From contig NZ_CP061379.1 of assembly GCF_015624505.1 (NCBI RefSeq), forward strand, positions 2,728,001 through 2,792,000: 64,000 nt of DNA. The letters are read 5' to 3'. Within the stretch, counting starts at the first letter, position 1. Each line of letters begins with the position of its first letter. Below the pieces are notes generated by a model that worked only from the letters and a program-made list of their open reading frames with translations, did not search any database and was not told where the DNA came from. This document shows positions 771 to 35,342 of this stretch, in pieces. This DNA comes from Bradyrhizobium commune (lineage in GTDB: Bacteria; Pseudomonadota; Alphaproteobacteria; Rhizobiales; Xanthobacteraceae). Both the position numbers and the translations under genes were made by a program.

Positions 771-837
771 AAACGTAGCATTAAAAAGCAAGACCGGGAG
801 ATCGCTCAAATTCAGCTGAGACAAACGTGGAGGCAGG

Positions 838-993
838 TCAGGACACGGTGGTTCGGTCTCTGATGTACCGGCGGCGCTGCCTGAGGCGCAAAAGTCTTCG
901 ACCGTAGATCGCCGCCAGGGTCAGGAGCCCACCCGCGACGAACGACGGCAGGCCAAAGACGAGCCACAAGAAGATAAGAAAGGTCGGCGGCAT
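838..993 (-). CDS. small membrane protein, third of an overlapping trio (51 aa)
   Basis: An ATG at 993 opens a 51-codon frame: MPPTFLIFLWLVFGLPSFVAG begins one or two hydrophobic helices, followed by a very basic tail (RRLLRLRQRRRYIRDR). A GTG at 1002 is an alternative start. Neither has a strong ribosome binding site, so translation may be coupled to the gene that ends at 1017. The positive-inside tail suggests a real single-pass membrane protein, but the short length keeps confidence low. No family is recognised. Confidence 0.4.
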   Translation of the reverse strand: MPPTFLIFLWLVFGLPSFVAGGLLTLAAIYGRRLLRLRQRRRYIRDRTTVS

Positions 994-1016
994 CCAGTGC
1001 ACCCGAGAGAGGCGGA

Positions 1017-1229
1017 TCAGGACCTACCCTGCTTGCGCGATTTCAACCAGCCGACGATTGCCGGCGGAGCGCCAAATCCGATGATGACGGGGATTATGGC
1101 CCAATTTCTCGAAAGGTAACCTAGCGCGACGAGAACATGGGCGAGGCCGGCCGACAGGAAAAACCCGGCCCAAGCCGCGATCCATTGCGCCGGCGTGAGG
1201 TCGAGACCTTTGTTGATCGGCAAGCTCAT
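1017..1229 (-). CDS. small membrane protein (70 aa), middle of the trio
   Basis: A 70-residue protein with two predicted helices: the first around residues 14-37 (QWIAAWAGFFLSAGLAHVLV), the second around 43-61 (WAIIPVIIGFGAPPAIVGWL), then a basic KSRKQGRS tail. Its ATG directly follows the TAG of the preceding gene (TAGATG), so the two are probably translationally coupled. The layout is that of a small inner-membrane protein set; a holin-like role is possible but nothing specific supports it. Confidence 0.55.
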   Translation of the reverse strand: MSLPINKGLDLTPAQWIAAWAGFFLSAGLAHVLVALGYLSRNWAIIPVIIGFGAPPAIVGWLKSRKQGRS

Positions 1230-1406
1230 CTACAAACGCGCTTCGACCCATCGATACACGACAATGAATATGACGGCCAACGCGCCGAGAACAAGGTAAT
1301 CCAGCAAGCGTGGGCAGCCTCCACAGACCCACGCGATGAGCCCGATCAGCGTTACGATCGCTTCACCTGTCGCAAGAATGCTGTCTATTCGGTCCATGAC
1401 AGACAT
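1230..1406 (-). CDS. small membrane protein (58 aa), first of the trio
   Basis: The frame from ATG 1406 gives 58 residues: a polar start (MSVMDRIDSILATGEAIVTL), then hydrophobic helices and a C-terminal VYRWVEARL. An in-frame ATG at 1397 would give MDRIDS. Its stop abuts the start of the next gene (TAG then ATG), the strongest sign that the frame is real. It heads a set of three overlapping small membrane proteins on the minus strand. Function unknown. Confidence 0.5.
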   Translation of the reverse strand: MSVMDRIDSILATGEAIVTLIGLIAWVCGGCPRLLDYLVLGALAVIFIVVYRWVEARL

Positions 1407-1521
1407 GCGTCTTCAGCGTGTTGCAGCAATCACTTCATCCAAGAGTAGAATGAAATCAGGACCTTCCCAAAATCAACTTGGGACACGGCGGGTCAAATAT
1501 CGGCAGGCCAAATCCGGGTAC

Positions 1522-1560
1522 TGGCCGAAACAGGCCACTCGGGATTTCAACGTAGGCCAC
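1522..1560. repeat. IS21-type terminal-repeat fragment (left side of island)
   Basis: Two motifs lie together here: one with core GAAACAGGCCA at about 1527-1537, and GATTTCAACGTAGGCCAC at 1543-1560. Close copies recur at 4844-4882 in swapped order. Multiple short repeats of this GGCCA type are typical of IS21-family element ends, so I read it as a transposon scar. The match is by eye. Confidence 0.35.
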
Positions 1561-1694
1561 CCTTGATCCAGCGAAGATGTTCACTATCTGTTCATGGAAC
1601 AATTTTTTACGTGTTGCGTCGAAATTACAGGCGTGGGAGCTCGACCAATGCAATGATGCCCCCTACCCAAATTCCCTCCCGCCTGATCAGAGCC

Positions 1695-2276
1695 ATGTTT
1701 GTTTCACGCGACCGGGAAAAGCTGCTTAACGCGATCATCTATTTTTTAGGTGCGACAAGCCATTGTCACACGTTGAAGCTTTTTAAGCTTTTGAACTTTG
1801 CCGACTTTGAGCACTTCAGGCAGACGGGCAGGACCATTTTCAATTTGGATTACCGCGCGCTGCCGATGGGGCCCGTGCCAACCAAACTTTACGATGAAAT
1901 CAAAAAAGGCGGGGAGCCGGACCTCAAGGCCGCAGTCAATCTTTTCCCTGTAAAGGATGACATCACAGACGCAATCCTGCGTCGCGATCTGAAGGTGCGC
2001 GGGAAGCTCGACAAGCAATACTTCAGCAAAAGAGAACTGCGTATTATCGAGCGCGTCGCTGAGTTCTTTCGCGATCTCAATGCGGCCGACATGAGCGAGT
2101 TTTCCCACCGAAAGGGAGAGCCGTGGCGCGCGATCTATGGAGCCAAAGGAGAAGGTACAGGAAAGATAATTCCACCAGACCTGAGTCTTGATGCAGAGCC
2201 TCTCATTAAAGACGCGCCAATGATTTCGCGCGAAGAATTGGAGGATCGCAGGGACGCCCTAAGAGATATCGCATGA
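1695..2276 (+). CDS. Panacea-domain antitoxin (PanA-type, DUF4065)
   Basis: A 193-residue protein whose whole length fits the Panacea (DUF4065, SocA-like) fold. Visible family marks are KLLNFADFEHFRQTGRTI at about residues 31-48, the GPVP motif at 59-62 followed by KLYDEIKKG, a helical FSKRELRIIERV segment near 110-121, and the late SHRKGEPW motif near 137-144. Panacea proteins neutralise many unrelated toxins encoded next to them. The stop overlaps the toxin start (ATGA), as in TA operons. Start 1695 matches the usual family N-terminus (MF..REKLLNAIIYF); in-frame ATGs at 1653 and 1656 follow a GGGAG and are possible. Base composition is lower in GC than the recA side. Confidence 0.85.
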   Translation: MFVSRDREKLLNAIIYFLGATSHCHTLKLFKLLNFADFEHFRQTGRTIFNLDYRALPMGPVPTKLYDEIKKGGEPDLKAAVNLFPVKDDITDAILRRDLKVRGKLDKQYFSKRELRIIERVAEFFRDLNAADMSEFSHRKGEPWRAIYGAKGEGTGKIIPPDLSLDAEPLIKDAPMISREELEDRRDALRDIA

Positions 2277-2707
2277 CCGATGACGCCATAGAGCCGGGCT
2301 GCGTTCTACATTGGGACGGATTCAAGCTCAGCGATGGCAAAGAAGGGCATAAGTATTTTGTTGTTGTTGGATCTCAGCCAAAGAAAAATTATCTCGCGAT
2401 CATAGCCACTTCGAAACAAAAAAGGCGAGCCGCTCAACCCGGTGGCAACCCTGACGGTGGCTGGTATCACGTCCCCGGAGGCGGAAGAGATTTTTTCAAG
2501 GTCGATACGTGGCTGCTATTTGACGCCGTCCAAGAGCTTTCAGCCGCAGACTTACTCAAGTTGAAGTTTGAAGGAAAAATCACTATCGCCGGGAAACTGC
2601 GCGGGGATATCGCTAACGCCATTTGCAATTGTATGCGGAAATGCGACGACGTGAGCGACTATCATAAAACTCTTCTTGGCCCACCAATTCAGAGGCCAAA
2701 GGCCTAG
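2273..2707 (+). CDS. PanT-type toxin, MazF/PemK-like fold suspected
   Basis: A 144-residue protein translationally coupled to panA by a 4-base overlap. The N-terminus (PGCVLHWDGFKLSDGKEGHK, then YFVVVG) resembles the first strands of PemK/MazF-type barrels, and FFKVDTWLLFDAVQELSA resembles their later strand-helix region. If so it would be an mRNA interferase. I cannot confirm catalytic residues, so the toxin class is inference; partnership with a Panacea antitoxin is the firmer evidence. The last codons overlap the 3' end of the IS1-type transposase remnant on the other strand, so the natural C-terminus may have been altered by that insertion. Confidence 0.7.
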   Translation: MTDDAIEPGCVLHWDGFKLSDGKEGHKYFVVVGSQPKKNYLAIIATSKQKRRAAQPGGNPDGGWYHVPGGGRDFFKVDTWLLFDAVQELSAADLLKLKFEGKITIAGKLRGDIANAICNCMRKCDDVSDYHKTLLGPPIQRPKA

Positions 2708-3350
2708 GCCTTGCCTCCTTCGATTACTGTAAACTTCCGACGCCGATCCGGAGGGGTCTCGGTAGGCAGCGCAGGGGCCACAGGGAGCGCGGCGTCCACA
2801 AGCTGCGCAATGCTCCAAGTCTTGTCAGTCACCCCCAGCGCTTTCGCTGGCGTCGTGCGCATGGCTTCATGGGGTACGGCAAACGTTGTAGTGCGCGACG
2901 CGCGACGGCTGCAACGTGGTTATCCAGCTTCTTGCTAAAGCCGTCCGTTGAAATCTCAGGCTGGCCGATAACCCAGCTGCAGAGGTCATGCAAAAAGTCC
3001 GTGGTGTTTTCGGCATTCCTCTTGCCGACGCCCCAGCTAATGATCGCCTTCTGCGTCCCGACCATGCCGATGAAAACGTACTGATCGCCCTTGGCGTTGA
3101 TCTCGTGGTGCTGGACGTTTTTTTGCTTCTTGCCGACGAAGCTCCACAGCTCGTCAAGCTCAAGGCGCTCGGTGCGCACGCCGACCATGATGCGGTCGTG
3201 TAACTCCATGCAGCCCATGCCGACACGCGGAGCCAGGTTGGCGACGGTGCCACGATTAACGCCAGTGAGGCGGGAAGCTGTGCGGATGCCGACGCCTTCG
3301 CAGAGGGCGGCAATGACTTCAATCTGCTTTTCGCGGGATAGGACGTTCAT
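2704..3350 (-). pseudogene. IS1-family transposase remnant (internal deletion plus two frameshifts)
   Basis: Starting at ATG 3350, the frame reads MNVLSREKQIEVIAALCEGV, then a helix-turn-helix, LELDELWSFVGKKQKNV with the first catalytic Asp, and PEISTDGF. It then jumps straight to SKKLDNHVAAV, which in related rhizobial IS1-type proteins lies many residues later after a second ..GF. The segment with the remaining catalytic residues is therefore gone, probably by recombination between the two short repeats. Two further frame changes follow: HYNVCR is in one frame and HEAMRTTPAKALGVTD through FTVIEGGKA in another, ending at the TAG at 2704-2706. It cannot make an active transposase. Confidence 0.85.
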
Positions 3351-3387
3351 GGAGGGTGCAATCCTCATTAGGATTGACCCCGGGACT

Positions 3388-3421
3388 CTAGAAAACGCGC
3401 TCTGCAAAGCGCATATTCTAG
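3388..3421. repeat. palindrome next to the transposase remnant
   Basis: CTAGAA and TTCTAG arms enclose an inner GCGCT / AGCGC pair, giving a nested hairpin about 40 bases upstream of the transposase start. It could be part of the element's terminal region or a small terminator. No target-site duplication was recognised. Confidence 0.3.
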
Positions 3422-3504
3422 TTTGGTCGCTGGCCCGGGGTGCAATCTCGGGTGGGTGACTAGGGATCGCTGAGGCTGCAACCGCAGCGCTCCCGCTTAT
3501 TCGG

Positions 3505-3580
3505 TGGTTCAGGGAGCCGGATTCGGATCGACATTTCCCAGCTTGTAGGGGCGGGTGTCCTACCGTTAGACGATCCCTGA
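3505..3580 (-). tRNA. degenerate tRNA-like gene with encoded CCA
   Basis: Read on the minus strand, a cloverleaf can be drawn. The acceptor stem TCAGGGA / TCCCTGA is perfect (7 bp), followed by discriminator A and an encoded CCA (3505-3507). The D arm has a 4-bp GTCT / GGAC stem, A14, GG18-19 and A21. The T arm GTCGA-TCCGAAT-CCGGC has C where T55 is normal and a mismatch at its base. The anticodon stem CCCGC / GCTGG has one C-T mismatch and only fits with an 8-base loop CCCTACAA, without the normal U33. No amino acid identity can be assigned. It may be a tRNA pseudogene or an unusual element-borne tRNA. Confidence 0.5.
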
Positions 3581-3840
3581 GAAGCTAGAGCCGATTGCAG
3601 GGCCGTTGCGTTCCTCCCCCGAGGTTTGGCGCAGCGGCCCTTCCTTTTTCCTCGCCCTTCGTCGCTCGGCTAGCGCGGCGAAAGGCTCAAACCCTTCTGG
3701 TCATGTCAGCCTCGTTTGCTGACGGCCATAAAGCATTTATCCAGATTGCGCGCAACAGCGAGATTGAGTTAGTGGATAAATTTATTCCTTGATGTATCCC
3801 GCCGCCTCCGCTATATGGAACCGAACCATTGGAGGGCCGT

Positions 3841-4569
3841 ATGGCTAAAATACGTAGTCCGAACTACCCGAGCATGTCCCTTGGCCCGGCGTTGGAGGCG
3901 GTGCGCCCGGCTTATGAAAAAGAGCACCGAAACAAGATGGCGCGCTCTGTGCTCGCCAAGCATATGGGCTATTCAAGCCTCAACGGTCGCGCCCTTGGTA
4001 AGATCGGCGCGGTGCGTGCATATGGTCTTATCGAAGGCTCAGGGGAAGAATTGCGGATCAGTGATGATACAGTAAAGGCCTTGATGGCTCCCGCAGGCTC
4101 CAGCGAACGAACGGAGGCGCTAGGGCGCCTCGCCAATCGGCCTCAGTTGTTTCAGGAACTGACGAAAGAATTCCCCAACACGTTGCCCAGCCTCGATAAC
4201 CTGAAATACGCCCTTATCAAACGCAACTTCATTCCGGACGCCGCAGAGAAGGCGGCAAAATCCTATCTCGCTACTATGAACCTTGTAGGCGGAATCCAAG
4301 ACGAGTATAATCCTCCCGATGACGAGGAGGAAAACTCCGATATGAATGAAGCTCAACTGGCGGCTGACGCGAAGCGCCTGCTCGACACACCTGTGCACCT
4401 GATCAAGAAACCAGTGCAGGAGGTTTTTAATCTGCCGGAAGGGACGGTTACGATCACGTTTCCGCAGCGGCTCTCAGTCGAATCCTATCAGGACATGGAG
4501 GATCAGCTGGAGTTGCTGCTCCGTCGCGTCAAACGGCAGATCGCCAAAGACGACGAGGCCGCCAACTAA
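3841..4569 (+). CDS. winged-helix-like hypothetical protein (242 aa)
   Basis: GGAGG sits 7 bases before ATG 3841, which settles the start. The N-terminal ~90 residues (YPSMSLGPALEAVRPAYEKE, then MARSVLAKHMGYSSLNGRAL) resemble a recurring family of predicted winged-helix proteins in which a helical DNA-binding-like module is followed by LRISDDTVKAL and a region like RPQLFQELTKEFPNTLPS. An acidic linker (PPDDEEENSD) near residue 160 leads to a C-terminal module, LPEGTVTITFPQRLSVESYQ, of a kind found on antitoxin-like proteins. No enzyme motif is seen. It is probably an accessory regulator or orphan antitoxin-like protein; no toxin gene is adjacent. Confidence 0.75.
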   Translation: MAKIRSPNYPSMSLGPALEAVRPAYEKEHRNKMARSVLAKHMGYSSLNGRALGKIGAVRAYGLIEGSGEELRISDDTVKALMAPAGSSERTEALGRLANRPQLFQELTKEFPNTLPSLDNLKYALIKRNFIPDAAEKAAKSYLATMNLVGGIQDEYNPPDDEEENSDMNEAQLAADAKRLLDTPVHLIKKPVQEVFNLPEGTVTITFPQRLSVESYQDMEDQLELLLRRVKRQIAKDDEAAN

Positions 4570-24268: not shown

Positions 24269-24916
24269 TCACACCGCCTCTAGCTGATCCGCGGCGCGCT
24301 TCTTCTTCGCCTTCGTCTGGCTGAGCAGGGGGCCGGCGGTCAGCGCCGCCGTGTCGGCCACGCCCGGATCGCGCGAGATCATGGCGGCGACGATGGCGCC
24401 GTCGATGATGAGGCCGAGCTGGTGCGCGAGCACCGCGGGCTCGGTCGAGCCGAGCTCGCCGGCGAGCTTCTCGATGTGGCCGAGCACGATCTTCTTGTGC
24501 TTCAGCGCGATGTTGCGGAACTGCTTTGCGTCCTTGTCGTGCTCGCCGACGGCATTGATAAAGGGACAGCCGTAGAAGCGTTCTTCCGCAAACCAGCTCT
24601 TCAGCGCCGGGAAGATGCGCGTGAGTTTTGCCTGCGCGTCGCCGCCGCCTTGCTCCATGGCGCCGATGAACCATTCGCGCCATTGCTTGCCTTCGCTCTC
24701 CAGCACCGCGTTGACGAGATTGGTCTTGGAGCCGAACAATTTGTAGAGCGTGGTCTTGGCGGTGCCGGCTTCCTCGATGATCGCGTCGATGCCGGTGGCG
24801 TTGATCCCGTTCTTGCAGAACAGATGCGTTGCCGCGTTGAGCAGGCGCCCGCGCGCGGATTCGTCTTCGCCTGCGGCGGCGTGGGGCGAGGTCTTCTTCG
24901 ATGACGTCTTTGCCAT
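24269..24916 (-). CDS. TetR-family transcriptional regulator
   Basis: A 215-residue repressor. The N-terminal helix-turn-helix covers about residues 22-66 (RLLNAATHLFCKNGINATGI, then AKTTLYKLFGSKTNLVNAVL), and the rest is a helical ligand-binding domain. It is divergent from the osmC operon, whose promoter region holds an ACCGTTCGGT dyad at 25117-25126, a plausible operator. The ligand is unknown; given the operon content it may be an organic or sulfur compound. Confidence 0.9.
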   Translation of the reverse strand: MAKTSSKKTSPHAAAGEDESARGRLLNAATHLFCKNGINATGIDAIIEEAGTAKTTLYKLFGSKTNLVNAVLESEGKQWREWFIGAMEQGGGDAQAKLTRIFPALKSWFAEERFYGCPFINAVGEHDKDAKQFRNIALKHKKIVLGHIEKLAGELGSTEPAVLAHQLGLIIDGAIVAAMISRDPGVADTAALTAGPLLSQTKAKKKRAADQLEAV

Positions 24917-25091
24917 GAGTCCAAACTTACCCGCAGCCGCGCCGCATCAGCAAGCCGCATCTGTTCCGCGCTGAAAAGATTCGCATCAGTGAGCCCATCT
25001 GCATCGCCTTTGAGCAAGCGGCGGCTGACCAATCCGCAGGCAGCGCCGGCTAAGCGGCTCCAATGCTTCGCCTTTTGTTTTTGGCCGGCTC

Positions 25092-25126
25092 TGGCACGCT
25101 CCATGCAAGGAAACAGACCGTTCGGT
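25092..25126 (+). promoter_or_regulatory. candidate sigma-54-like promoter and TetR operator before osmC
   Basis: TGGCACGCTCCATGCA at 25092-25107 keeps the GG-N10-GC core of -24/-12 promoters, differing from TGGCAYRN4TTGCW only in the -12 element's first T. ACCG-TT-CGGT at 25117-25126 is a short dyad of the type TetR proteins bind. The start codon is at 25163. No enhancer-type repeat like that of the cyanate locus was found upstream. Confidence 0.35.
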
Positions 25127-25162
25127 ATCCTGCCGGATTCCACGGCTGCCAGGGAGAAGATG

Positions 25163-25705
25163 ATGACTGCCGTCGTTCAAAAGACAGTGCTGACGGGTTG
25201 CCTCGCACCCATCGACAAGAATGGCCTCGAGCAACTGATCGCCAACGGCAAGGCCAATCCGAAGGTCGTCAAGACCTTGAAATGCAAGACGGTTGCGGAA
25301 GGAAAATTCCGCCACGCCAACTACATCCGCAATCTGCCGCCCTACATCGTCGACGAGCCGCCGGGCTTACTCGGCGACGACACCGCGCCCAATCCGTCGG
25401 AAGCCTCGCTCGCCGCGCTCGGCTCCTGCCTTGCGGTCGGCCTCCACGCCAACGCCGTGCATCGCGGCTGGATCGTCAACAAGCTCGAGCTCGAGCTCGA
25501 AGGCGATCTCAACATCACCGCGGTCTGGGGCACGGGCGATATGTCGGACAAGCCCGTCGGCTTCACCGACGTCCGCGTCAAGGTCGACATGGACTGCGAA
25601 GGCGTCTCGCAGGACGAGATCGACGCGCTTGTCGCCCATGTGAAGAAATGGTCGCCGGTGGCGAACACTTTCACCCGCCCGGTCAATCTCGAGGTCGGCA
25701 TCTAA
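25163..25705 (+). CDS. OsmC/Ohr-family protein
   Basis: A 180-residue protein of the OsmC superfamily, which reduces organic hydroperoxides with a pair of Cys. Visible elements are NYIRNLPPYIVDEPPGLLGD, APNPSEASLAALGSCLAVGL (Cys in the helix-start position) and the late DEIDALVAHVKKWSPVAN. In place of a second catalytic Cys before NTFTRPV there is SPVANTF, so peroxidase activity of the classic type is uncertain. GGGAG lies 6 bases before ATG 25163; ATG 25160 is also possible. It is the first gene of an operon with a flavoprotein and a sulfurtransferase. Confidence 0.88.
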   Translation: MTAVVQKTVLTGCLAPIDKNGLEQLIANGKANPKVVKTLKCKTVAEGKFRHANYIRNLPPYIVDEPPGLLGDDTAPNPSEASLAALGSCLAVGLHANAVHRGWIVNKLELELEGDLNITAVWGTGDMSDKPVGFTDVRVKVDMDCEGVSQDEIDALVAHVKKWSPVANTFTRPVNLEVGI

Positions 25706-25740
25706 CGATCAGCAACCAGGACAAGGTGCGGGAGACGATC

Positions 25741-26874
25741 ATGGGGTCACTGGCTTTATCACGGGCCGAAGTTTTGGATCAGCCCGCACCGTCCATTGCC
25801 GGCGAGGTGGCGCGAATTGCGCGCGAGCAGCTCGCGCCGCTCGCCGCCGGCATCGATGCCGGCACGGTCTATCCGGCCGAGGTGCTGCGCGAATTCGGCG
25901 TGGCCGGCGCCTGGGGCAGTCACGTGCCTCACGAGGGGCCCGCAGATCTGCGCTGCGCCATCCAGGCGATGGCGGCGATCGGCGAGGTCTGCGGCGCCAC
26001 CGCTTTCATGGCCTGGTGCCAGACCACGCTGGTCTGGTACGCGGCGAACTCGACCAATCTGAAACTGGCAAAACGCTTCGGCGATGCGTTCTCGACCGGC
26101 CGCGTGCTCGGCGGCACCGGGCTCTCCAATCCGATGAAGAGCTTCTTCGGGATCGAGAAGCTCAAGCTGAAGGGAAAGAAAGTCGACGGCGGCTACATCG
26201 TCCGCGGCGCGCTGCCCTGGGTCTCCAATCTCGGCCCCGACCACTACTTCGGCACCATTTTCGAGCGCGAGGACGATCAGGGCATCGCAAGCGGCGAGCC
26301 CGGCACCGTGATGTTCCTGGCCGACTGCTCGGACCCGGCGATCACGCTGACGCCTTGCAAGCCGTTCCTCGCGATGGATGGCACCGGCACCTACGGCGTG
26401 CAGTTCCGCGACGTCTTCGTGCCGGACGAGCTGATCCTGGCCGATCCCGCCGGCCCTTTCGTGAAGAAGATCCGCGCCGGCTTCATCCTGCTCCAGGCCG
26501 GCATGGCGCTCGGCGTCATCCGCGACTGCATCAACATCATGGACGAGGTCGACAATCCGCTCGGCCACATCAACCGCTATCTGCCGCAGCAGCCGGTGCA
26601 CTTCCGCGATCTCGCCGCCGAGCTCGAGGCGGAGACGATGGCGCTGGCGCGCGATCCCTACAACGAGGAGGAGACCTACTGGCGCAAGGTGATTGCGCTC
26701 AGGCTTCGCGCCGGCGAAGCCAGCGTCGCGGCGGCGCATGCAGCGATGCTGCATTGTGGCGCGCGCGGCTATCTCAAGAGCCACCGCGCGCAGCGGCGTC
26801 TGCGCGAGGCTTACTTCGTCGCGATCGTCACGCCTGCCACCAAGCAGCTGCGCAAGATGCTCGCCGATTCCTGA
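25741..26874 (+). CDS. acyl-CoA-dehydrogenase-like flavoprotein
   Basis: A 377-residue member of the acyl-CoA dehydrogenase superfamily: an N-terminal helical domain (SIAGEVARIAREQLAPLAAG), a middle FAD-contact strand region (RVLGGTGLSNPMKSFFG) and a C-terminal four-helix domain. No clear catalytic Glu context of true acyl-CoA dehydrogenases is seen, so it could instead belong to the FMN monooxygenase-like branch that includes sulfur-scavenging enzymes. GGGAG precedes ATG 25741. It begins 35 bases after osmC and 50 bases before the sulfurtransferase; co-transcription is likely. Confidence 0.85.
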   Translation: MGSLALSRAEVLDQPAPSIAGEVARIAREQLAPLAAGIDAGTVYPAEVLREFGVAGAWGSHVPHEGPADLRCAIQAMAAIGEVCGATAFMAWCQTTLVWYAANSTNLKLAKRFGDAFSTGRVLGGTGLSNPMKSFFGIEKLKLKGKKVDGGYIVRGALPWVSNLGPDHYFGTIFEREDDQGIASGEPGTVMFLADCSDPAITLTPCKPFLAMDGTGTYGVQFRDVFVPDELILADPAGPFVKKIRAGFILLQAGMALGVIRDCINIMDEVDNPLGHINRYLPQQPVHFRDLAAELEAETMALARDPYNEEETYWRKVIALRLRAGEASVAAAHAAMLHCGARGYLKSHRAQRRLREAYFVAIVTPATKQLRKMLADS

Positions 26875-26924
26875 AGCTTTACGAGTCCACCCCGAAGACC
26901 CCCAACCTCAACGGAGAGGCTGCC

Positions 26925-27803
26925 ATGACTGACGTCCTGATTACTGCCGTCGAACTCGCCGATCTCTTGAAAACCGAGCCGTGTGTCGTCGTCGACACCC
27001 GCAATCCCGACGCCTATGCCGCAGGCCACCTGCCCAACGCCGTCAACGTGCATGAGATCTTCACCTTCCTTGCGACCTCGACGCCGGAAGGCATGGCCGA
27101 GCTGAAGACCAAGTTCGCCGATGCGTTCGGCGGCGCGGGTCTCTCCGGCAAGGAAACGGCTGTGATCTACGAGCAGTCGATGAATTCCGGCTTCGGCCAG
27201 TCCTGCCGCGGCTACTATCTCCTCACCATGCTCGGCTATCCCAAGATCAAGGTGCTGCACGGCGGCTTCGACGCGTGGTCGGCCGCGGGCTTCCCGGTGA
27301 CGAAGGACGTGCCGGCACCGGCAAAGGCCTCCTTCTCGATCGTGCCTGAAGCTGGCGACATCCTGATCGACGCCAAGACCATGCTCGGCGCGGTCGGCAA
27401 GCCCGGCATCGCCATCCTCGACGTGCGCGATGTCGACGAGTGGATCGGCGACAGCTCTTCTCCCTATGGGAAGGATTTCTGTCCGCGCAAGGGCCGCATC
27501 CCCGGTGCGGTGTGGCTGGAATGGTATCGCATGATGAAGCCGACCGCCGAAGGTCCGCGCTTCAAGTCCAAGGACGAGATTCTTGCCGAATGCGCCACCG
27601 TCGGCATCTCGCAGACCACACCGGTCTATCTCTACTGCTTCAAGGGCGCGCGCGCCTCGAACACCTTCCTCGCGCTCAAGAACGCCGGTGTGAAGGACGT
27701 GCGGATGTACTTCGGCTCCTGGAACGAATGGTCGCGCGATCCGTCGCTGCCGATCGAGCAGGGCCTGCCGATTGCGACTGAAGTCACCACCAAGGCGGCG
27801 TGA
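26925..27803 (+). CDS. two-domain sulfurtransferase (rhodanese)
   Basis: A 292-residue tandem rhodanese. Domain 1 (about 8-125) has VVVDTRNPDAYAAGHLPNAV; its catalytic loop lacks a usable Cys. Domain 2 (about 145-280) has ILDVRDVDEW and Cys238 in YLYCFKGARASN, the active-site position. Such enzymes transfer sulfane sulfur from thiosulfate or mercaptopyruvate to acceptors, including cyanide. GGAGAGG is 5 bases before ATG 26925. It ends the osmC operon and lies one gene away from the cyanase locus, which hints at shared cyano/sulfur chemistry but does not prove it. Confidence 0.92.
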   Translation: MTDVLITAVELADLLKTEPCVVVDTRNPDAYAAGHLPNAVNVHEIFTFLATSTPEGMAELKTKFADAFGGAGLSGKETAVIYEQSMNSGFGQSCRGYYLLTMLGYPKIKVLHGGFDAWSAAGFPVTKDVPAPAKASFSIVPEAGDILIDAKTMLGAVGKPGIAILDVRDVDEWIGDSSSPYGKDFCPRKGRIPGAVWLEWYRMMKPTAEGPRFKSKDEILAECATVGISQTTPVYLYCFKGARASNTFLALKNAGVKDVRMYFGSWNEWSRDPSLPIEQGLPIATEVTTKAA

Positions 27804-27813
27804 ACGCGCGCCT

Positions 27814-27943
27814 CGTCCTTCGAGACGACCGCTTCGCGGTCTCCTCAGGATGAGGCTAAGCGGCAGCGGTACCTGTTGAAACTGCTGCCGCGCACGCCGT
27901 CCTCATCCTGAGGAGCCCGCCTAAAGCGGGCGTCTCGAAGGAT
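27814..27943. repeat. extragenic inverted repeat overlapping the regulator's 3' end
   Basis: CGTCCTTCGAGACG on the left pairs with CGTCTCGAAGGATG on the right; inner CTCCTCAGGATGAGG pairs with CCTCATCCTGAGGAG. The right arm extends 23 bases into the adjacent minus-strand gene and supplies its stop codon (27921-27923) and last residues. Confidence 0.75.
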
Positions 27944-29861
27944 GGGCCGCACGCGGACGAGGCGCGATCCCGAGCGCCTTGATCCGCGAGGCCAGCGTGG
28001 TCGGCTTGATATCAAGCATTTCGGCCGCGCCAGCGGGGCCGAACACTTTTCCGGCGCAGGCCTCGAGCGCGGCGAGAATATTGGCGCGCTCGTGATCGCG
28101 CATCTCCGATGACGTCATCACCGCCGGCTGCGCGTCGGCCTTCTGCCGTGCGGTGCCGCTGGGCGTTTGGGCGCCGGAGGCATCCGGCAGATCGATGCGC
28201 AGGCGGCCGTTCTGCGACAGGATCGCGGCGCGCTCGATCACGTTCTGCAATTCGCGGACATTGCCGGGCCAGTCGTAGCGGGTCAGCCGCCGCGCATCGC
28301 CTTCCGACAGCCGCAAATTCGATTTCAGCGCCTTGCTCTCGCGGGTCAGGAAATGCTGGGCCAGCAGCGGGATGTCCTCGCGGCGTTCGCGCAGAGGGAC
28401 GGTCTCGATCGGAAAGACGTTGAGGCGGAAATAGAGGTCCTCGCGAAAGCGGCCGCGCTGGACCTCCTGCTTGAGATCGCGATTGGTCGCGGCGATGACG
28501 CGGACGTCGACGGTTCGCGTGCGCTCCTCGCCGACGCGCTCGAAATTACCCTCCTGCAAGACGCGCAGCAGCTTGCCCTGCAGCTCCAGCGGGATCTCGC
28601 CGACCTCGTCGAGGAACAACGTGCCTCCGTCGGCGAGCTCGAAGCGGCCGATGCGGTCGCGCGTCGCACCAGTGAAGGCGCCGCGGACATGGCCGAAGAA
28701 TTCGCTCTCGAACAATTCGCGCGGGATCGCGGCGCAGTTGACGCGGATCAGCGGCCGGTCGCTGCGGGTGGAGTCCTCGTGAATGGCGCGCGCGATCAAC
28801 TCCTTGCCGGTGCCGGACTCGCCGGTGATCATCACCGCCGCCGTGGTCGGGGCCACCAGCTTGACCTGGCGCAGCGTCTTCTGGACCGCCTCGCTCTGGC
28901 CGATGATGCCGCGCGGGTTGGTCTCGATACGGATTTCTTCCTGGAGATAGGCGTTTTCGAGCTCGAGTCGCTCGCGCAGGCGATCGACCTCGGCGAGCGC
29001 GGCGTGCAGCTTCTCGTCGGCCTCGCGGCGCTGGCTGACGTCGCGAAATACCACGACGGCGCCGACCACCACGCCGCGGTCGCGAATGGGCGTGGAGGTG
29101 TATTCGACCCAGGCCGGCGAGCCGTCCTTGCGCCAGAACACTTCGCCATCGACCTGGTGCACGGCGCCGTCGCGGAACGCCGCATAGATCGGGCAGTCGT
29201 GATCCGGATAGTAACGACCGTCATGATGGGTGTGGTGCACGATCGGGTGGATTTCCTTTCCGACCAGCTCCTCGGCGGTCCAGCCGAGCATGCGCTCGGC
29301 CGCGGGATTCACGAAGGTGGTCTTGCCTTCGGCATTGACGCCATAGATGCCTTCGCCGGCGGCGCGCAGGATCAGCTGGTTCTCGCGCTCGATGTCCTGG
29401 AACACGCGCTCGACCCGCTGCCAGGTCGAAATGCCGCTGCGCATGTGGTCTTCGGCGGCGGCATCGACGTTGCGGCGGCGGCGGGCTTCGAGATCGGTCA
29501 GCGTCAGCAGCACCAGCGTGCGGCCGTCATGGGGCAGCAGGCAGCCGGCATATTCAAGCCTGAGCGTTTGCCCGGTGGCATGACGCGGGGTGACCGCCGT
29601 GGTCCAGTAGGCGCCCTTATGCAGCACGGCCTGGGTGAACACGGTGAGCGCCGGCAGCTGGCCGGCATGAAGCGTGCTGGCGCTGGTCTGCCGCAGCAAT
29701 GCGCGGTCGTAGCCGAGCAGGGTGCAGGCGGCCGGATTGGCGTCGATGATCTGGTCGCCATAGGGGTCCACCAGCAGCGTCGCCTCGACCGAGGATTCGA
29801 AGGCTGCGGTGCGCGGATCGAGATTTTGCGCGACCTCGTCGGGGGTGAGCGTCGAAAGCAT
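27921..29861 (-). CDS. PAS-PAS-AAA+ sigma-54 activator of the cyanate operon
   Basis: A 646-residue enhancer-binding protein. PAS1 spans about residues 20-125 ([20 protein letters not shown]), PAS2 about 165-275 ([20 protein letters not shown], later [12 protein letters not shown]), with a coiled coil near 283-310. The AAA+ domain has Walker A GESGTGKE at 347-354, the sigma-54 contact loop GAFTGA at 394-399 and Walker B LFLDEV at 415-420. A Fis-type helix-turn-helix ends it ([20 protein letters not shown]). PAS2 carries an [16 protein letters not shown] stretch that could bind a metal or haem. GGAG precedes ATG 29861; upstream in-frame ATGs would run across its own operators. The last residues come from an extragenic repeat. 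Confidence 0.93.
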
Positions 29862-29889
29862 TGCCACTCCGAAATCTCGTAATCTGACC

Positions 29890-29918
29890 ACGAATTCTCG
29901 TGTATCACGAATTTTCGT
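29890..29918. promoter_or_regulatory. paired inverted-repeat operators (enhancer for the sigma-54 activator)
   Basis: Two 12-base dyads of the form ACGA-N4-TCGT, at 29890-29901 and 29907-29918, have centres 17 bases apart; the second extends to ACGAANNTTCGT. They lie between the activator gene and its divergent target, 60-88 bases upstream of the -24/-12 promoter. That is a normal enhancer distance, and they are close enough to the activator's own start for autoregulation. Confidence 0.7.
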
Positions 29919-29977
29919 AGCGACCAAGTGCGACCGAAACTCCTGCGTCATCAAGGCACTGGCCTGCCGACCGGCAC

Positions 29978-29993
29978 TGGCATGCTCCTTGCT
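29978..29993 (+). promoter_or_regulatory. sigma-54 (-24/-12) promoter of the cyanate operon
   Basis: TGGCATGCTCCTTGCT fits the sigma-54 consensus TGGCAYR-N4-TTGCW at every position, with the invariant GG and GC 10 bases apart. It sits 34 bases before the ATG of the binding-protein gene, leaving room for a start site near 30003 and the GGAGG ribosome binding site. Confidence 0.9.
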
Positions 29994-30027
29994 GAATTCC
30001 ACCTCGCAATGACGCGCAGGAGGTCCG

Positions 30028-31407
30028 ATGTCCACGTTCGACAATCCGTTTGATCCCGACCGCAACCTTCGGGCCGGCTGCGTCTGCGGCCAGCATCAAT
30101 CAGCCGCCGAGCACGAGCAGGCCTCAGCGCTGCGCTGTGATCCCGTCGAGAGCGAGGAGAAGCGCTACGAGGGCGTGGTGGCGTCGGCGGTGATGCGTGC
30201 GATGTTTCCGCAGGACGTGGCGCGGCGCGCCTTCCTGAAATCGGTCGGTGCGTCGACGGCGCTGGCGGCGCTGTCGCAGTTCTTTCCGATCAAGACCGCG
30301 ACCGAAGTTTTCGCCGACACCGGCACGCCGGAGAAGAAGGACCTCAAGGTCGGCTTCATCCCGATCACCTGCGCGACGCCCATCATCATGGCGGCGCCGC
30401 TCGGCTTCTATTCCAAGCACGGCCTCAACGTCGACGTGGTCAAGACCGCCGGCTGGGCTGTGATCCGCGACAAGACCATCAACAAGGAATACGACGCCGC
30501 GCACATGCTGGCGCCGATGCCGATCGCGATCTCGCTGGGCCTGGGCGCCAATGCGATTCCGTTCACGGTGCCCGCGATCGAGAACATCAACGGGCAGGGC
30601 ATCACGCTTGCGATGAAGCACAAGGACAAGCGCGACCCGAAGGACTGGAAGGGGATGAAATTCGCGATCCCGTTCGACTACTCCATGCACAATTACCTGC
30701 TGCGGTATTATCTCGCCGAGAACGGCATCGATCCCGACACCGACGTGCAGCTGCGCTCGGTGCCGCCGCCCGAAATGGTTGCGAACCTGCGCGCCGACAA
30801 CATCGACGGCTTCCTCGCGCCCGACAACATCTGCCAGCGCGCGATCTATGACGGCGTCGGCTTCATGCATCTGCTGTCGAAAGAGATCTGGGACGGCCAT
30901 CCCTGCTGCAGCTTCGCTGCCAGCAAGGAGTTCATCACGACCGCGCCGAACAGCTTTGCCGCACTGACGCGTGCGATCGTCGATGCGACCGCCTATGCGT
31001 CGAAGGCCGAGAACCGCAAGCAGATCGCCGAAGCCATCGCACCGGCCAACTACATCAACGCGCCGGTCACCGTGCTGGAGCAGGTCCTGACCGGCACCTA
31101 TGCCGACGGCCTTGGTGGTGTGAAGACGGATGCCAAGCGCGTCGATTTCGATCCGTTCCCCTGGCAGTCCTTTGCGGTCTGGATGCTGACGCAGATGAAG
31201 CGCTGGGGCCAGATCAAGGGCGATGTCGACTACAAGGCGGTGGCAGAACAAGTGTATCTCGCAACCGACACCAAGAAGCTGATGACCGAGATGGGCCTGT
31301 CGCCGCCGGAGAGCGCGTACAAATCGTTCGCGGTGATGGGCAAGACTTTCGATCCGACCAAGCCGGACGATTACGTCGCGAGCTTCAAGATCAGGAAGGC
31401 GTCGTGA
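30028..31407 (+). CDS. NrtA/CmpA-family ABC substrate-binding protein (cyanate-type, Tat-exported)
   Basis: A 459-residue binding protein of the nitrate/bicarbonate/cyanate class. The twin-arginine motif is at residues 66-67 ([14 protein letters not shown]), so it should be exported folded. The unusual 65-residue extension before it has a CxC and a third Cys (GCVCGQHQ, later ALRC). The mature part has [20 protein letters not shown] and [20 protein letters not shown], as in NrtA-type proteins. GGAGG precedes the ATG. With permease, ATPase and cyanase downstream, cyanate is the likely ligand; nitrate remains possible. Confidence 0.92.
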
Positions 31408-31431
31408 GGACGGCGCGCGCGCGCTCTCAAG

Positions 31432-31560
31432 CGTCGTCCCGGCGAAAGCCGGGACCCATAACCCCAGGGGAAAGTTTGACGAAGACTTTTCGTTCGGTGC
31501 TCCTATCGAGCGCGATCGATAGATTCCGCGGTATGGGTCCCGGCCTTCGCCGGGACGACG
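31432..31560. repeat. inverted repeat inside the cyanate operon
   Basis: CGTCGTCCCGGCGAAAGCCGGGACCCATA at the left and its near-complement ending GGGACGACG at the right flank an AT-richer centre. It lies between the binding-protein and permease genes, so it may shift the transcript ratio in favour of the binding protein. Confidence 0.75.
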
Positions 31561-31579
31561 GGTGGAGAGGTCTTGCGCG

Positions 31580-32419
31580 ATGACATCCTCCCTCCGCCTT
31601 CGCGCCGGCCTCGTCTCGATCGCGCTGCTGGCCGCGTTCCTCGGCGTCTGGCATCTCGCCACGCGTTCGGCAGGCCCGACCGCGGCGATGAGCCCGGAAT
31701 ACGCCAAGCTGATGGGCCTCACCGCGACGCAGGGCAAATCGGCGATGCCGGGGCCGCTCGATGTCGGCGCAAAGCTGTGGGAGCATCTGAAGCGGCCGTT
31801 CTACGACAACGGGCCGAACGACAAGGGGCTGGGCATCCAGCTCGCATATTCCATTGCGCGCGTCGGCACCGGCTATCTGCTGGCGGTGCTGGTGGCGATC
31901 CCGCTCGGCTTCCTGATCGGCATGTCGCCGCTGCTGAGCAAGGCGCTCGATCCCTTCATCCAGGTGCTGAAGCCGATCTCGCCGCTCGCCTGGATGCCGC
32001 TCGCGCTCTACACCATCAAGGATTCCTCGATCTCCGCGATCTTTGTGATCTTCATCTGCTCGATCTGGCCAATGCTGCTCAACACCGTCTTCGGCGTGGC
32101 CAGCGTGCGCAAGGAATGGATCAACGTCGCGCGGACGCTGGAGGTCGGCACGTTCCGTCGCGCCTTCACCGTAATCCTGCCGGCGGCGGCGCCGACGATT
32201 TTGACCGGCATGCGCATCTCCATCGGCATCGCCTGGCTCGTGATCGTCGCCGCCGAAATGCTCGTCGGCGGCACCGGCATCGGCTATTTCGTCTGGAACG
32301 AGTGGAACAACCTCTCGATCACCAACGTCATCATCGCGATCCTCTTGATCGGCGTCGTCGGCATGCTGCTCGACCAGATCCTCGCGCGCTTCACGCGCAT
32401 GGTCACGTTTCCGGAGTAG
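31580..32419 (+). CDS. ABC transporter permease (cyanate/nitrate type)
   Basis: A 279-residue inner-membrane permease of the NrtB/CmpB/SsuC class, with about six helices. The first is at about residues 9-27 (GLVSIALLAAFLGVWHLATR). The EAA-type loop is visible as VARTLEVGTFRRAFTVILPA, the contact site for the ATPase, and IAWLVIVAAEMLVGGTGIGY is characteristic of the family. ATG 31580 is used, with GGAGAGG about 10 bases upstream; a TTG at 31562 is in frame but lies in the repeat region. The next gene starts 6 bases after its stop. Confidence 0.94.
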   Translation: MTSSLRLRAGLVSIALLAAFLGVWHLATRSAGPTAAMSPEYAKLMGLTATQGKSAMPGPLDVGAKLWEHLKRPFYDNGPNDKGLGIQLAYSIARVGTGYLLAVLVAIPLGFLIGMSPLLSKALDPFIQVLKPISPLAWMPLALYTIKDSSISAIFVIFICSIWPMLLNTVFGVASVRKEWINVARTLEVGTFRRAFTVILPAAAPTILTGMRISIGIAWLVIVAAEMLVGGTGIGYFVWNEWNNLSITNVIIAILLIGVVGMLLDQILARFTRMVTFPE

Positions 32420-32424
32420 GGGCT

Positions 32425-33348
32425 GTGACCGACAAATTCATCTCCATCGAAGGCATCGCCAAGTGCTATCCGGGTGCGAGCGGCGCCACGACGACGATCT
32501 TCGAGAATCTGTGGCTGTCGATGGCGCGCGGCGAGTTCTGCTGCGTGATCGGCCATTCCGGCTGCGGCAAGACCACGGTGCTCAACATCCTCGCCGGCCT
32601 CGATGCGCCGAGCGAGGGCGCCGTCATCGTCGACGGCCAGGCGATTTCCGGCACCAGCCTCGACCGTGCCGTGATCTTCCAGAGCCATGCGCTGTTGCCC
32701 TGGCGCACCGTGCTCGGCAACGTCGCCTATGCCGTGAGCTCGAAATGGCGGCGCTGGGATCGCGCCAGGGTCAAGGCGCATGCGCAGACCTTTATTGATC
32801 TCGTCGGCCTAACCGGCTCGGAGCACAAGCGGCCATCAGAGCTCTCCGGCGGCATGAAGCAGCGCGTCGGCATCGCGCGGGCGCTCTCGATCACGCCAAA
32901 GATGATGCTGATGGACGAGCCGTTCTCGGCGCTGGATGCGCTGACGCGTGGCACGCTCCAGGACGAGGTGCGGCGGATTTGCCTTGAGACCGGACAGACC
33001 GCGTTCATGATCACGCATGATGTGGACGAGGCGATCTATCTCGCCGACAAGATTTTCCTGATGACCAATGGTCCGGGCGCGGTGCTGGCGGAGGTCGTCG
33101 AGAATCCGCTGCCGAAGGATCGCGGCCGCACCGATCTGCACCGCCATCCGCTGTACTACGCGCTGCGCAACCACATCATCGATTTCCTGGTGACGCGCAG
33201 CAAGACCTTCGTCGCCGAGAAGCCCGATCACGATCCGCGCAATGTGCCGGTGGTGCACATCGGCAAGCCCGGACTGACCATCGCTTCGGGCGGCGAAGAT
33301 CAACGACAGACCTGGACACCCGGGAGCAGTCCCGGATTGACGGCCTAG
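32425..33348 (+). CDS. ABC transporter ATP-binding protein (cyanate/nitrate type)
   Basis: A 307-residue ATPase: Walker A GHSGCGKT at residues 43-50, Q-loop in AVIFQSHALLPW, signature LSGGMKQR, Walker B MMLMDEPFSALD and the switch His in FMITHDVDEA. It belongs to the NrtD/TauB/SsuB group. It starts at GTG 32425, its GGAG lying in the end of the permease gene. A C-terminal extension of about 60 residues after FLVTRSK (ending TWTPGSSPGLTA) has no domain and may be repeat-derived sequence. Confidence 0.94.
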   Translation: MTDKFISIEGIAKCYPGASGATTTIFENLWLSMARGEFCCVIGHSGCGKTTVLNILAGLDAPSEGAVIVDGQAISGTSLDRAVIFQSHALLPWRTVLGNVAYAVSSKWRRWDRARVKAHAQTFIDLVGLTGSEHKRPSELSGGMKQRVGIARALSITPKMMLMDEPFSALDALTRGTLQDEVRRICLETGQTAFMITHDVDEAIYLADKIFLMTNGPGAVLAEVVENPLPKDRGRTDLHRHPLYYALRNHIIDFLVTRSKTFVAEKPDHDPRNVPVVHIGKPGLTIASGGEDQRQTWTPGSSPGLTA

Positions 33349-33364
33349 AAAGGGAGACCTGACA

Positions 33365-33847
33365 ATGAAACGCGAAGACCTCACCGAAAAGCTGCTCGAC
33401 ATCAAGCGCGAGAAGGGCTGGAGCTGGAAACACATCTGCGAGAAGATCGGCGGCTATTCGGAAGTGCTGATCGTCGGCGCGATCCTCGGCCAGATGAAGC
33501 TGACAAAACCGCAGGCCGCCAATGCCGCCGAGCTGTTCGGCTTGTCGAAGGCCGAGACCACGATGTTGAACGAGACGCCGATGCGCGGCATGCCGATGCC
33601 GCCGACCGATCCCCTGATCTATCGCTTCTACGAGCTGGTGATGGTCAACGGCCCGGCCTGGAAGGCACTGATCGAGGAGGAATATGGCGACGGCATCATG
33701 TCGGCGATCGACTTCGACATGGTGATGGAGCGTCTGCCCAACCCGAAGGGCGACCGCGTCAAGATCACGATGTCAGGCAAATTCCTGCCGTACAAATATT
33801 ACGGCGCCAGCGGCAACGTGCCGGAGTACGGCTTCAAGGAAGGTTAA
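33365..33847 (+). CDS. cynS: cyanate hydratase (cyanase)
   Basis: Decomposes cyanate with bicarbonate to ammonia and two CO2, detoxifying cyanate and yielding nitrogen. At 160 residues it has family length. The catalytic triad is intact: Arg87 and Glu90 in YRFYE, Ser113 in IMSAIDF, matching R96, E99 and S122 of E. coli CynS. The N-terminal helix-turn-helix-like domain and the LPYKYYG end are typical. GGGAG lies before the ATG. As last gene of the sigma-54 operon it defines the likely substrate of the transporter. No cynR (LysR) or cynT (carbonic anhydrase) is nearby. Confidence 0.97.
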   Translation: MKREDLTEKLLDIKREKGWSWKHICEKIGGYSEVLIVGAILGQMKLTKPQAANAAELFGLSKAETTMLNETPMRGMPMPPTDPLIYRFYELVMVNGPAWKALIEEEYGDGIMSAIDFDMVMERLPNPKGDRVKITMSGKFLPYKYYGASGNVPEYGFKEG

Positions 33848-33854
33848 CGGGGGT

Positions 33855-33908
33855 GAGTGGCGAATTGCGAGTAGCGAATGGGGGACCCTCATTCGCTACT
33901 CGCCACTC
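33855..33908. terminator. hairpin between cynS and the convergent zeta-type gene
   Basis: GAGTGGCGA..GAGTAGCGAATG and CATTCGCTACTCGCCACTC form a long stem around a GGGGACCCT centre, with a small bulge. It lies between two convergent genes and probably ends transcription from both. It is also of a type repeated in these genomes. Confidence 0.65.
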
Positions 33909-33918
33909 CCTATTTCGC

Positions 33919-34242
33919 CTATTTCCCCGCCTTCACCTCGGCCACCGCCACCGCAATCAGCTCGCCCATCTTGGCCCGAATCGTCTGCTCGGTGATGGCG
34001 ACGTTCTTGGCGGCGAAATCGGCCATGACCTTGCGCAGCACGTCACCGTCGCCGGCTTCCTCGAAATCGGCCGCGACGACCTCCTTGGCGTAGGCGGTAG
34101 CGGCTTCGCCGCTGATTCCGAGCTTTTCGGCCGCCCACAGGCCGAGCAGCCGGTTGCGGCGGGCCTCCGCCTTGAATTTCTGCTCCTCGTCGAGGGCGAA
34201 CTTCTTCTCAAAGCCTTCCTCGCGCTTGTTCAACTCGCTCAT
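33919..34242 (-). CDS. F1-ATPase inhibitor zeta-subunit family (DUF1476)
   Basis: A 107-residue helical protein with the family core EGFEKKFALDEEQKFKAEAR and NRLLGLWAAEKLG, then VVAADFEEAGDGDVLRKV. In Paracoccus the zeta protein of this family blocks ATP hydrolysis by F1FO-ATP synthase; in several other alphaproteobacteria the homologue is a weak inhibitor or has another role. It is a single gene on the minus strand, not near the atp operon. Confidence 0.9.
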   Translation of the reverse strand: MSELNKREEGFEKKFALDEEQKFKAEARRNRLLGLWAAEKLGISGEAATAYAKEVVAADFEEAGDGDVLRKVMADFAAKNVAITEQTIRAKMGELIAVAVAEVKAGK

Positions 34243-34574
34243 GCGTCTTGCAATTCCCTGCTGAATGGACCGGGCCGCCCGCGTTGCGGGGGCCTCAGCG
34301 CATGCCTAGATAGGGGGCACGAATCGGCAAAACAACGAGCCGTTAAGCCGCAGGCAAGGCGGTATAAGTTGGCATCGAAGGGGCCGGATCGATTGTGCTG
34401 GGACGGCCAATCGGATAGGTTGCCTGAGGTTGGGTTCCTGTTCTGTTTCCTTGGTATTTCCAAGGGTTCCAGACGGGTTCCGAGCCGTTCACGGCAGCTC
34501 CGCTGTGGGTCAGTAGTCCTAGTCAACCGGAGCACACCAAATACATGGATTTCAACAAAACACGGTACATCCCC

Positions 34575-35342
34575 ATGAGCCGTCGGCGTCGCATTTATGA
34601 AGGCAAGGCAAAGGTTCTTTACGAAGGTCCGGAGCCCGGCACCCTGATCCAGCACTTCAAGGATGACGCCACCGCGTTCAATGCGAAAAAGCATCAGGTG
34701 ATCGAGGGCAAGGGTGTCCTCAACAATCGGATCTCGGAGTACCTGTTTCAGCACCTCAACGACATCGGGGTGCCGACCCATTTCATCCGCCGCCTCAACA
34801 TGCGCGAGCAGTTGATTCGCGAGGTCGAGATCGTGCCGCTGGAAGTGGTGGTGCGGAACGTCGCCGCCGGCTCGCTGTCGCAGCGCCTCGGCATCGAGGA
34901 GGGCACGCAGCTGCCCCGTTCGATCATCGAGTTCTATTACAAGAACGACCAGCTCAACGACCCCATGGTGTCGGAAGAGCACATCACCGCCTTCGGCTGG
35001 GCCACGCCGCAGGAGATCGACGACATCATGGCGCTCGCCATCCGCGTCAACGATTTCCTCACCGGCCTCTTCCTCGGTATCGGCATCCGCCTCGTCGACT
35101 TCAAGATGGAATGCGGGCGGCTGTTCGAGAACGAGATGATGCGGATCATCGTCGCCGACGAGATCTCGCCGGATAGCTGCCGTCTGTGGGACATCAAGTC
35201 GAACGAGAAGCTCGACAAGGACCGTTTCCGCCGCGACCTCGGCGGTCTGCTCGAGGCCTATACCGAAGTTGCAAAACGCCTCGGCATCCTCATGGAAAAC
35301 GAGCGTCCGGCGGGCTCCGGTCCGGTGCTGGTGAAGAGCTGA
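34575..35342 (+). CDS. purC: SAICAR synthetase
   Basis: Phosphoribosylaminoimidazole-succinocarboxamide synthase: joins CAIR and aspartate using ATP in purine synthesis. The 255 residues begin [16 protein letters not shown] and include the ATP/substrate motifs [24 protein letters not shown] and [12 protein letters not shown]. Start 34575 agrees with the family N-terminus; an in-frame ATG at 34545 lies closer to a GGAG and would add [10 protein letters not shown]. It heads the chain purC-purS-(corA)-purQ-purL. Confidence 0.96.

Follow-up and report, generated by a model that had tools for sequence, protein, structure and literature searches.

The closest described relative of the system considered here is the cynFABDS cluster of Pseudomonas pseudoalcaligenes (oleovorans) CECT5344, in which cynF, the gene for a Fis-type sigma-54-dependent activator, is divergent to cynABDS and a putative sigma-54 promoter precedes cynA (PMC6627978). 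According to the same paper, cynABDS is a single, cyanate-induced transcript, cyanase activity likewise rises with cyanate and is absent with ammonium, a cynF mutant displays neither cyanase nor growth on cyanate, mutation identifies the transporter as a cyanate transporter, and similar cynF arrangements occur in alpha-, beta-, and gammaproteobacteria (PMC6627978). In a 2025 survey, the genes under sigma-54 regulation that are enriched in alpha- and gammaproteobacteria include cyanate lyase (PMC12316311). Here, we have analyzed a stretch of 64,000 nucleotides from Bradyrhizobium commune (contig NZ_CP061379.1, positions 2,728,001 to 2,792,000; designated the window), which harbors a locus with the same divergent Fis-type activator gene, the same cynABDS order, and a putative sigma-54 promoter before cynA. 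Judging from its conservation, the locus is a functional cynF-cynABDS system of this already characterized type. Escherichia coli cynTSX, like the window operon, places cyanase under a cyanate regulator, but that regulator is the LysR protein CynR, the transporter belongs to the major facilitator superfamily, and a carbonic anhydrase gene is included (PMC6627978). Cyanobacterial cynABDS operons combine an ATP-binding cassette (ABC) transporter and cyanase in the same order as the window.

The cynF-cynABDS locus and its intergenic region

In the window, cynF (27921-29861, minus strand) encodes an activator of 646 residues with the architecture PAS1-PAS2-AAA+(GAFTGA)-Fis-type helix-turn-helix (HTH). 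Divergent from it, on the plus strand, are cynA (30028-31407), encoding a substrate-binding protein of the CmpA/NrtA superfamily with a twin-arginine translocation (Tat) signal, cynB (31562-32419), encoding an ABC permease (BPD_transp_1), cynD (32425-33348, GTG start), encoding the ABC ATPase, and an intact cynS (33365-33847). CynS exceeds both NCBIfam cyanase cut-offs (210.3 and 134.7 bits versus 150 and 113.3). In CynF, Pfam recognizes PAS_8 (best stretch, residues 19-56), PAS (161-275), Sigma54_activat (249 bits, with GAFTGA inside the match), and HTH_8 (587-629; 20.4 bits, slightly below the cut-off of 22). The original prediction, made from the sequence without database searches, had named just these activator domains and operon genes, and both stand. 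CynF shares 54% identity over 622 aligned residues with the Pseudomonas CynF-like protein P0240, which was compared in place of CECT5344 BN5_0438. No LysR-type regulator lies beside cynS; the regulator adjoining the operon is the sigma-54 activator. The contrast drawn with CynR was right. The accompanying claim of a new control logic fails, as cynF/cynABDS has already been described with mutants and reverse transcription-PCR; this literature rules out a novel control system (PMC6627978).

The intergenic region of 166 bp contains three dyads. Two are exact matches to ACGA-N4-TCGT and are putative CynF enhancer sites (ACGAATTCTCGT, 29890-29901; ACGAATTTTCGT, 29907-29918); they had been predicted, 17 bp apart, and are the sole exact dyads in the window. 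A third, missed previously, lies at 29869-29880 (CCGAAATCTCGT) and reads CCGA-N4-TCGT, with C in place of A at the first base, so that the array has spacings of 21 and 17 bp. The exact double dyad, with its N5 spacer, occurs at one place in the 7,622,528 bases of the genome and its reversed control at none, and TGGCAYGNNNCTTGC gives 13 genome matches versus 0 for the reversed control. The -24/-12 element of cynABDS, identified by sequence match, is TGGCATGCTCCTTGC at 29978-29992 (plus strand). Scored against the sigma-54 consensus (TGGCAC or TGGCAY), it carries T where the strict form has C; the prediction that every defined position is matched therefore holds for TGGCAY and not for TGGCAC. 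Translation of cynF most likely starts at ATG 29861, which has GGAG just upstream, rather than at the TTG at 30065 offered by the open reading frame, and the dyads therefore lie outside cynF. The main text of PMC6627978 contains none of the terms "inverted," "palindrom," "enhancer," or "upstream activat."

The two PAS domains differ in their conservation. PAS2 is 54-97% identical to that of the window protein in 22 compared CynF proteins, whereas PAS1 is 23-77% identical in the 18 that have it. PAS1 is missing from four (L061, L064, L065, and L067), and L062, cut by its contig end, also begins at PAS2. Since PAS2 is conserved and PAS1 is divergent or, in a few relatives, missing, PAS2 appears the likelier signal domain of CynF.

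Within the genome, a single contig of 7.62 Mb, there are one rpoN, one CynS at E <= 1e-10, and one CynA at E <= 1e-60. A second CynF was not found at E <= 1e-60; three other matches, 44-49% identical, start at residue 279 or beyond. No Rfam family reached its gathering score in window positions 24900-35000. The cynA-cynB gap contains a long, seemingly perfect palindrome at 31432-31560 (RNA fold, -94 kcal/mol; z, -7.1) that resembles repetitive extragenic palindromes. Among 82 cynA-cynB gaps, 30 span 60 bases or fewer, and a hairpin matching a simple pattern was present in 26 of the longer ones.

Dyads and promoter in relatives with and without CynF

The comparison set comprised 99 stretches: 80 loci found through CynA, which were the top-ranked 80 of 587 confirmed ones; 18 stretches from a draw of 398 genomes of the phylum, 37 of which had a match and 16 of which supplied these stretches; and the window. 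After omission of L070 (upstream sequence too short) and L129 (duplicate of L049), 99 distinct CynA genes with at least 50% identity remained. Exact dyads were searched for within 420 bp upstream and TGGCA-N6-TTGC within 220 bp, relaxed dyads could also begin with C or G, and the rule for CynF adjacency was relaxed to take in five CynF genes whose match starts after residue 150. Counts with a denominator of 66, from the first comparison of CynF-adjacent loci, still include L129.

Gene content, promoter, dyads, and their conservation can be read directly from these genomes. An exact dyad is present upstream of 63 of the 65 CynA genes with an adjacent divergent CynF and of none of the 34 without CynF, and 58 of the 65 have two or more. 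The first comparison (64/66 versus 0/34) gave a Fisher p value of 1.1e-24, which is overstated because the relatives are not independent. Exact TGGCA-N6-TTGC likewise precedes 63 of the 65 genes, versus 6 of the 34 others. With relaxed dyads, three sites spaced 21/17 occur in 45 loci and 22/17 in 5 (50 of 66 CynF-adjacent loci). In four more loci the spacing is 38 or 39, which would suit decay of the middle site, and the remaining ten have a single interval of 17, 21, or 23. The last dyad lies 67-71 bp from the -24/-12 element in 51 of 62 measured loci (one a duplicate) and 82-97 bp from it in the rest. All stretches together, 1.30 Mb, contain 147 exact dyads. The proposal that control runs through sigma-54 and a dedicated PAS-type activator acting via the dyads is thus well supported, both by this conservation and by the characterized Pseudomonas homolog. 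A Loktanella plasmid, in which CynF lies beside a nitrilase gene cluster, retains the 17-bp dyad pair; the search pattern gave no -24/-12 promoter match there.

Twenty stretches, most of them from Bradyrhizobium, have CynA immediately behind acyl-CoA-dehydrogenase-like and rhodanese genes with no CynF between them; osmC precedes these genes in all but L051, which is cut there. In G335, one of the 20 and a single contig, CynF was not found elsewhere at E <= 1e-60 (best match, 43% over residues 255-634). L039 has CynA on both sides of CynF, and L080 has a cut upstream copy. The body of the window CynA itself belongs to the osmC-operon type. When the protein was divided into 15 blocks of 30 residues, 13 blocks showed 97-100% identity to the closest of nine proteins of this type, compared with 63-93% to the closest of six proteins of the other type. 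By eye, the first ten residues resemble the other type, but this does not hold for block 1 in its entirety (83% versus 73%). CynA of L053 and L057 switches clearly between blocks from one type to the other, forming CynF-type/osmC-operon-type mosaics. Together, these patterns make recombination between CynA copies likely. A CynF-less CynA behind the osmC/acyl-CoA-dehydrogenase/rhodanese operon is a natural rewiring, of which either state may be ancestral.

None of 51 osmC-operon upstream regions (220 bp) contains an exact dyad. In the window, a -24/-12-like element, TGGCACGCTCCATGC, lies before osmC at 25092-25106. Of 54 osmC upstream regions, 53 contain TGGC-N8-TGC, yet the full TTGC is present in just 3 of these 53, which makes the element a weak sigma-54 candidate. 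Just 3' of it, ACCGTTCGGT (25117-25126) is an imperfect palindrome conserved in the osmC upstream alignment. It may be the operator of the TetR-family gene at 24269-24916, opposite the osmC operon (Pfam TetR_N, 48 bits); 53 of the 99 stretches carry a relative of this gene, among them 17 of the 20 with osmC-operon CynA. L124 (10271-13184) and L127 (reversed, 821-3967) each have another CynF-like activator, with 45-49% identity, immediately ahead of osmC and the acyl-CoA-dehydrogenase-like gene, and TGGCA-N6-TTGC precedes osmC in both. We found no literature joining cyanase, rhodanese, and OsmC.

CynA and its cysteines

CynA shares its fold with NrtA and CmpA and retains W143, Q190, and H221. 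A model built from a 90-sequence alignment that included cyanobacterial relatives (mean predicted local distance difference test score [pLDDT], 84.1; mature part confident) superimposes on 2g29 with a template modeling score of 0.90 by target length, at 1.4 A and 28% identity. Residues 1-90 have block means of 34-62 even in this model, and a model from 39 close sequences reached a mean pLDDT of 40.4. In NrtA, the basic residues K269 and H196 balance nitrate (PMC8786288). With a chain offset of 29 for 2g29, inferred from both residues, H196 is kept as H221, but Lys269 aligns with C294, and the nitrate-balancing pair is thus not retained. All 82 distinct CynA-type proteins sampled have C115, C293, and C294, whereas the corresponding residues are D, E, and K in nine of nine NrtA-type proteins. 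The sample consisted of the window protein plus one in six of P0001-P0120 (21), one in four of P0241-P0360 (30), and 31 distinct locus open reading frames, totaling 82 after duplicates (ten of 42 locus proteins and one other) had been taken out.

About 65 residues precede the twin-arginine motif (R66-R67) of CynA, and they include C-x-C-G-x-H-x5-H (C18, C20, H23, and H29), with Cys and His invariant in an alignment of 39 sequences (A1). The form C-x-C-x(1-3)-[HC] precedes the Tat motif in 120 of 120 listed homologs and 91 of 120 cyanobacterial relatives. Among the 29 cyanobacterial proteins without it, 20 were displayed; nine start downstream of the region and eleven have C-x-x-C-G-x-x-H. Cys occupies a His position in L120, L121, L140, and L141, and Cys/His exchange is common at metal sites. 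The motif is absent from nine of nine NrtA-type proteins. A Pseudanabaena plasmid copy, the one cyanobacterial case in the cysteine sample with a known gene neighborhood, has the same CynA cysteines and a Cys/His motif before its Tat signal; unlike the window, it has no adjoining CynF, and a PAS histidine kinase and response regulator lie upstream.

These residues raise the speculative possibility, to which we give rather little credence, that CynA-type proteins form a thiol-dependent class in which C294, together with C293 and C115, would lie in or close to the pocket and capture cyanate via a soft metal or reversible S-carbamoylation, and in which the cytosolic pre-Tat Cys/His module loads the metal or proofreads the redox state before export. 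No description of the CynA cysteines or of the dyad array was found in the literature consulted, in searches that were not aimed at either feature by name.

Alternative readings and the proposed mechanism

The most serious alternative is that the transporter serves mainly another small anion, such as nitrite, nitrate, or thiocyanate, with cyanase present for detoxification. The nearest solved relatives of CynA do bind nitrate or bicarbonate, CynB scores 229 bits with the NCBIfam nitrate-permease model TIGR01183, above its cut-off of 209, many homologs are named nitrate/nitrite transporters, some CynA-type genes lack cynS, and a rhodanese gene adjoins the operon. Yet the replacement of NrtA Lys269 by Cys throughout the CynA-type sample, the presence of cynS downstream of 81 of the 86 distinct CynA genes that could be judged (another 13 are cut off), and the identification by mutation of the Pseudomonas homolog as a cyanate transporter (PMC6627978) make this explanation unlikely. 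Because of the linkage to cynS, we assign the operon to cyanate, which it probably imports and converts to ammonium.

We regard as still more improbable a role of the dyads mainly in cynF autoregulation, or for a different regulator, with CynF acting elsewhere. Their position, between 8 and 57 bp ahead of the ATG of cynF, would suit such a role; however, the dyads track the presence of CynF, and their mostly constant distance from the -24/-12 element is as expected of enhancers. The two roles of the dyads, in autoregulation and as enhancers, can also coexist.

Several observations weigh against CynF-controlled cyanate use as a full account. L063 and L119 have CynF without an exact dyad, and L117 and L123 have CynF and dyads without an exact promoter match (L117 keeps the 22/17 array; its CynF and a protein named Vreelandella aquamarina are identical). 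TGGCA-N6-TTGC precedes six CynA genes that have neither CynF nor dyads (L059, L066, L071, L122, L124, and L125); the element alone is therefore not specific, and these genes perhaps answer to another activator. The locus counts overstate independence, the loci being related. Five CynA genes lack cynS despite at least 4 kb of sequence and, together with the contexts of L140 and L142, indicate that a CynA-type transporter need not be accompanied by cyanase. L140 (Moraxella osloensis plasmid) and L142 (Bradyrhizobium sp. 192 plasmid) have no cynS nearby; their neighbors encode flavin or molybdopterin oxidoreductases, in L142 also a carbon-nitrogen hydrolase, and their transporters possibly carry another small anion. 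Finally, a 2026 transcriptome of Bradyrhizobium DOA9 speaks for RpoN control in that it places cynS among the genes reduced in RpoN mutants, but the listing is silent on the directness of the effect and on a CynF-type locus (PMC13207237).

Taken together, the data are very probably explained by a cynF-cynABDS system in which CynF, acting via three dyads and RpoN, drives cyanate uptake and cyanase. CynF dimers would bind the three ACGA-N4-TCGT-type dyads and assemble as a hexamer. A signal, probably cyanate or a derivative, would be sensed mainly by PAS2, and CynF would then loop to RpoN-RNA polymerase at 29978-29992 and start cynABDS transcription. Tat-exported CynA would hand cyanate to CynBD, and CynS would turn cyanate and bicarbonate into ammonium and CO2. 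NorR, likewise a sigma-54 activator, is the best-scoring NCBIfam model for CynF (375.5 bits, under the NorR cut-off of 476), but its sensor domain is GAF rather than PAS. The NorR site sequence differs from the window dyad. With one dimer at each dyad, the array would suit a hexameric activator; NorR likewise needs three enhancer sites, which scaffold its hexamer (PMC2941729). CynF dependence, cyanate induction, and ammonium repression are known for the Pseudomonas homolog. An RpoN promoter is by itself no proof of nitrogen control; the ammonium repression is that reported in Pseudomonas.

Our results place a characterized cyanate regulon in Bradyrhizobium, with a precise, conserved enhancer array. 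What is added to the described system is the third dyad and hence the array, the contrast between PAS1 and PAS2, the CynF-less relatives, and the CynA cysteine signature. This signature splits the sampled cyanase-linked binding proteins from those of the nitrate type and could help correct the name "nitrate transporter" borne by many homologs. As some strains have CynF next to this operon and others do not, nature has provided its own test of regulatory rewiring. The features that most merit further attention are the enhancer array, the lack of CynF in some relatives, and the cysteine signature of CynA.

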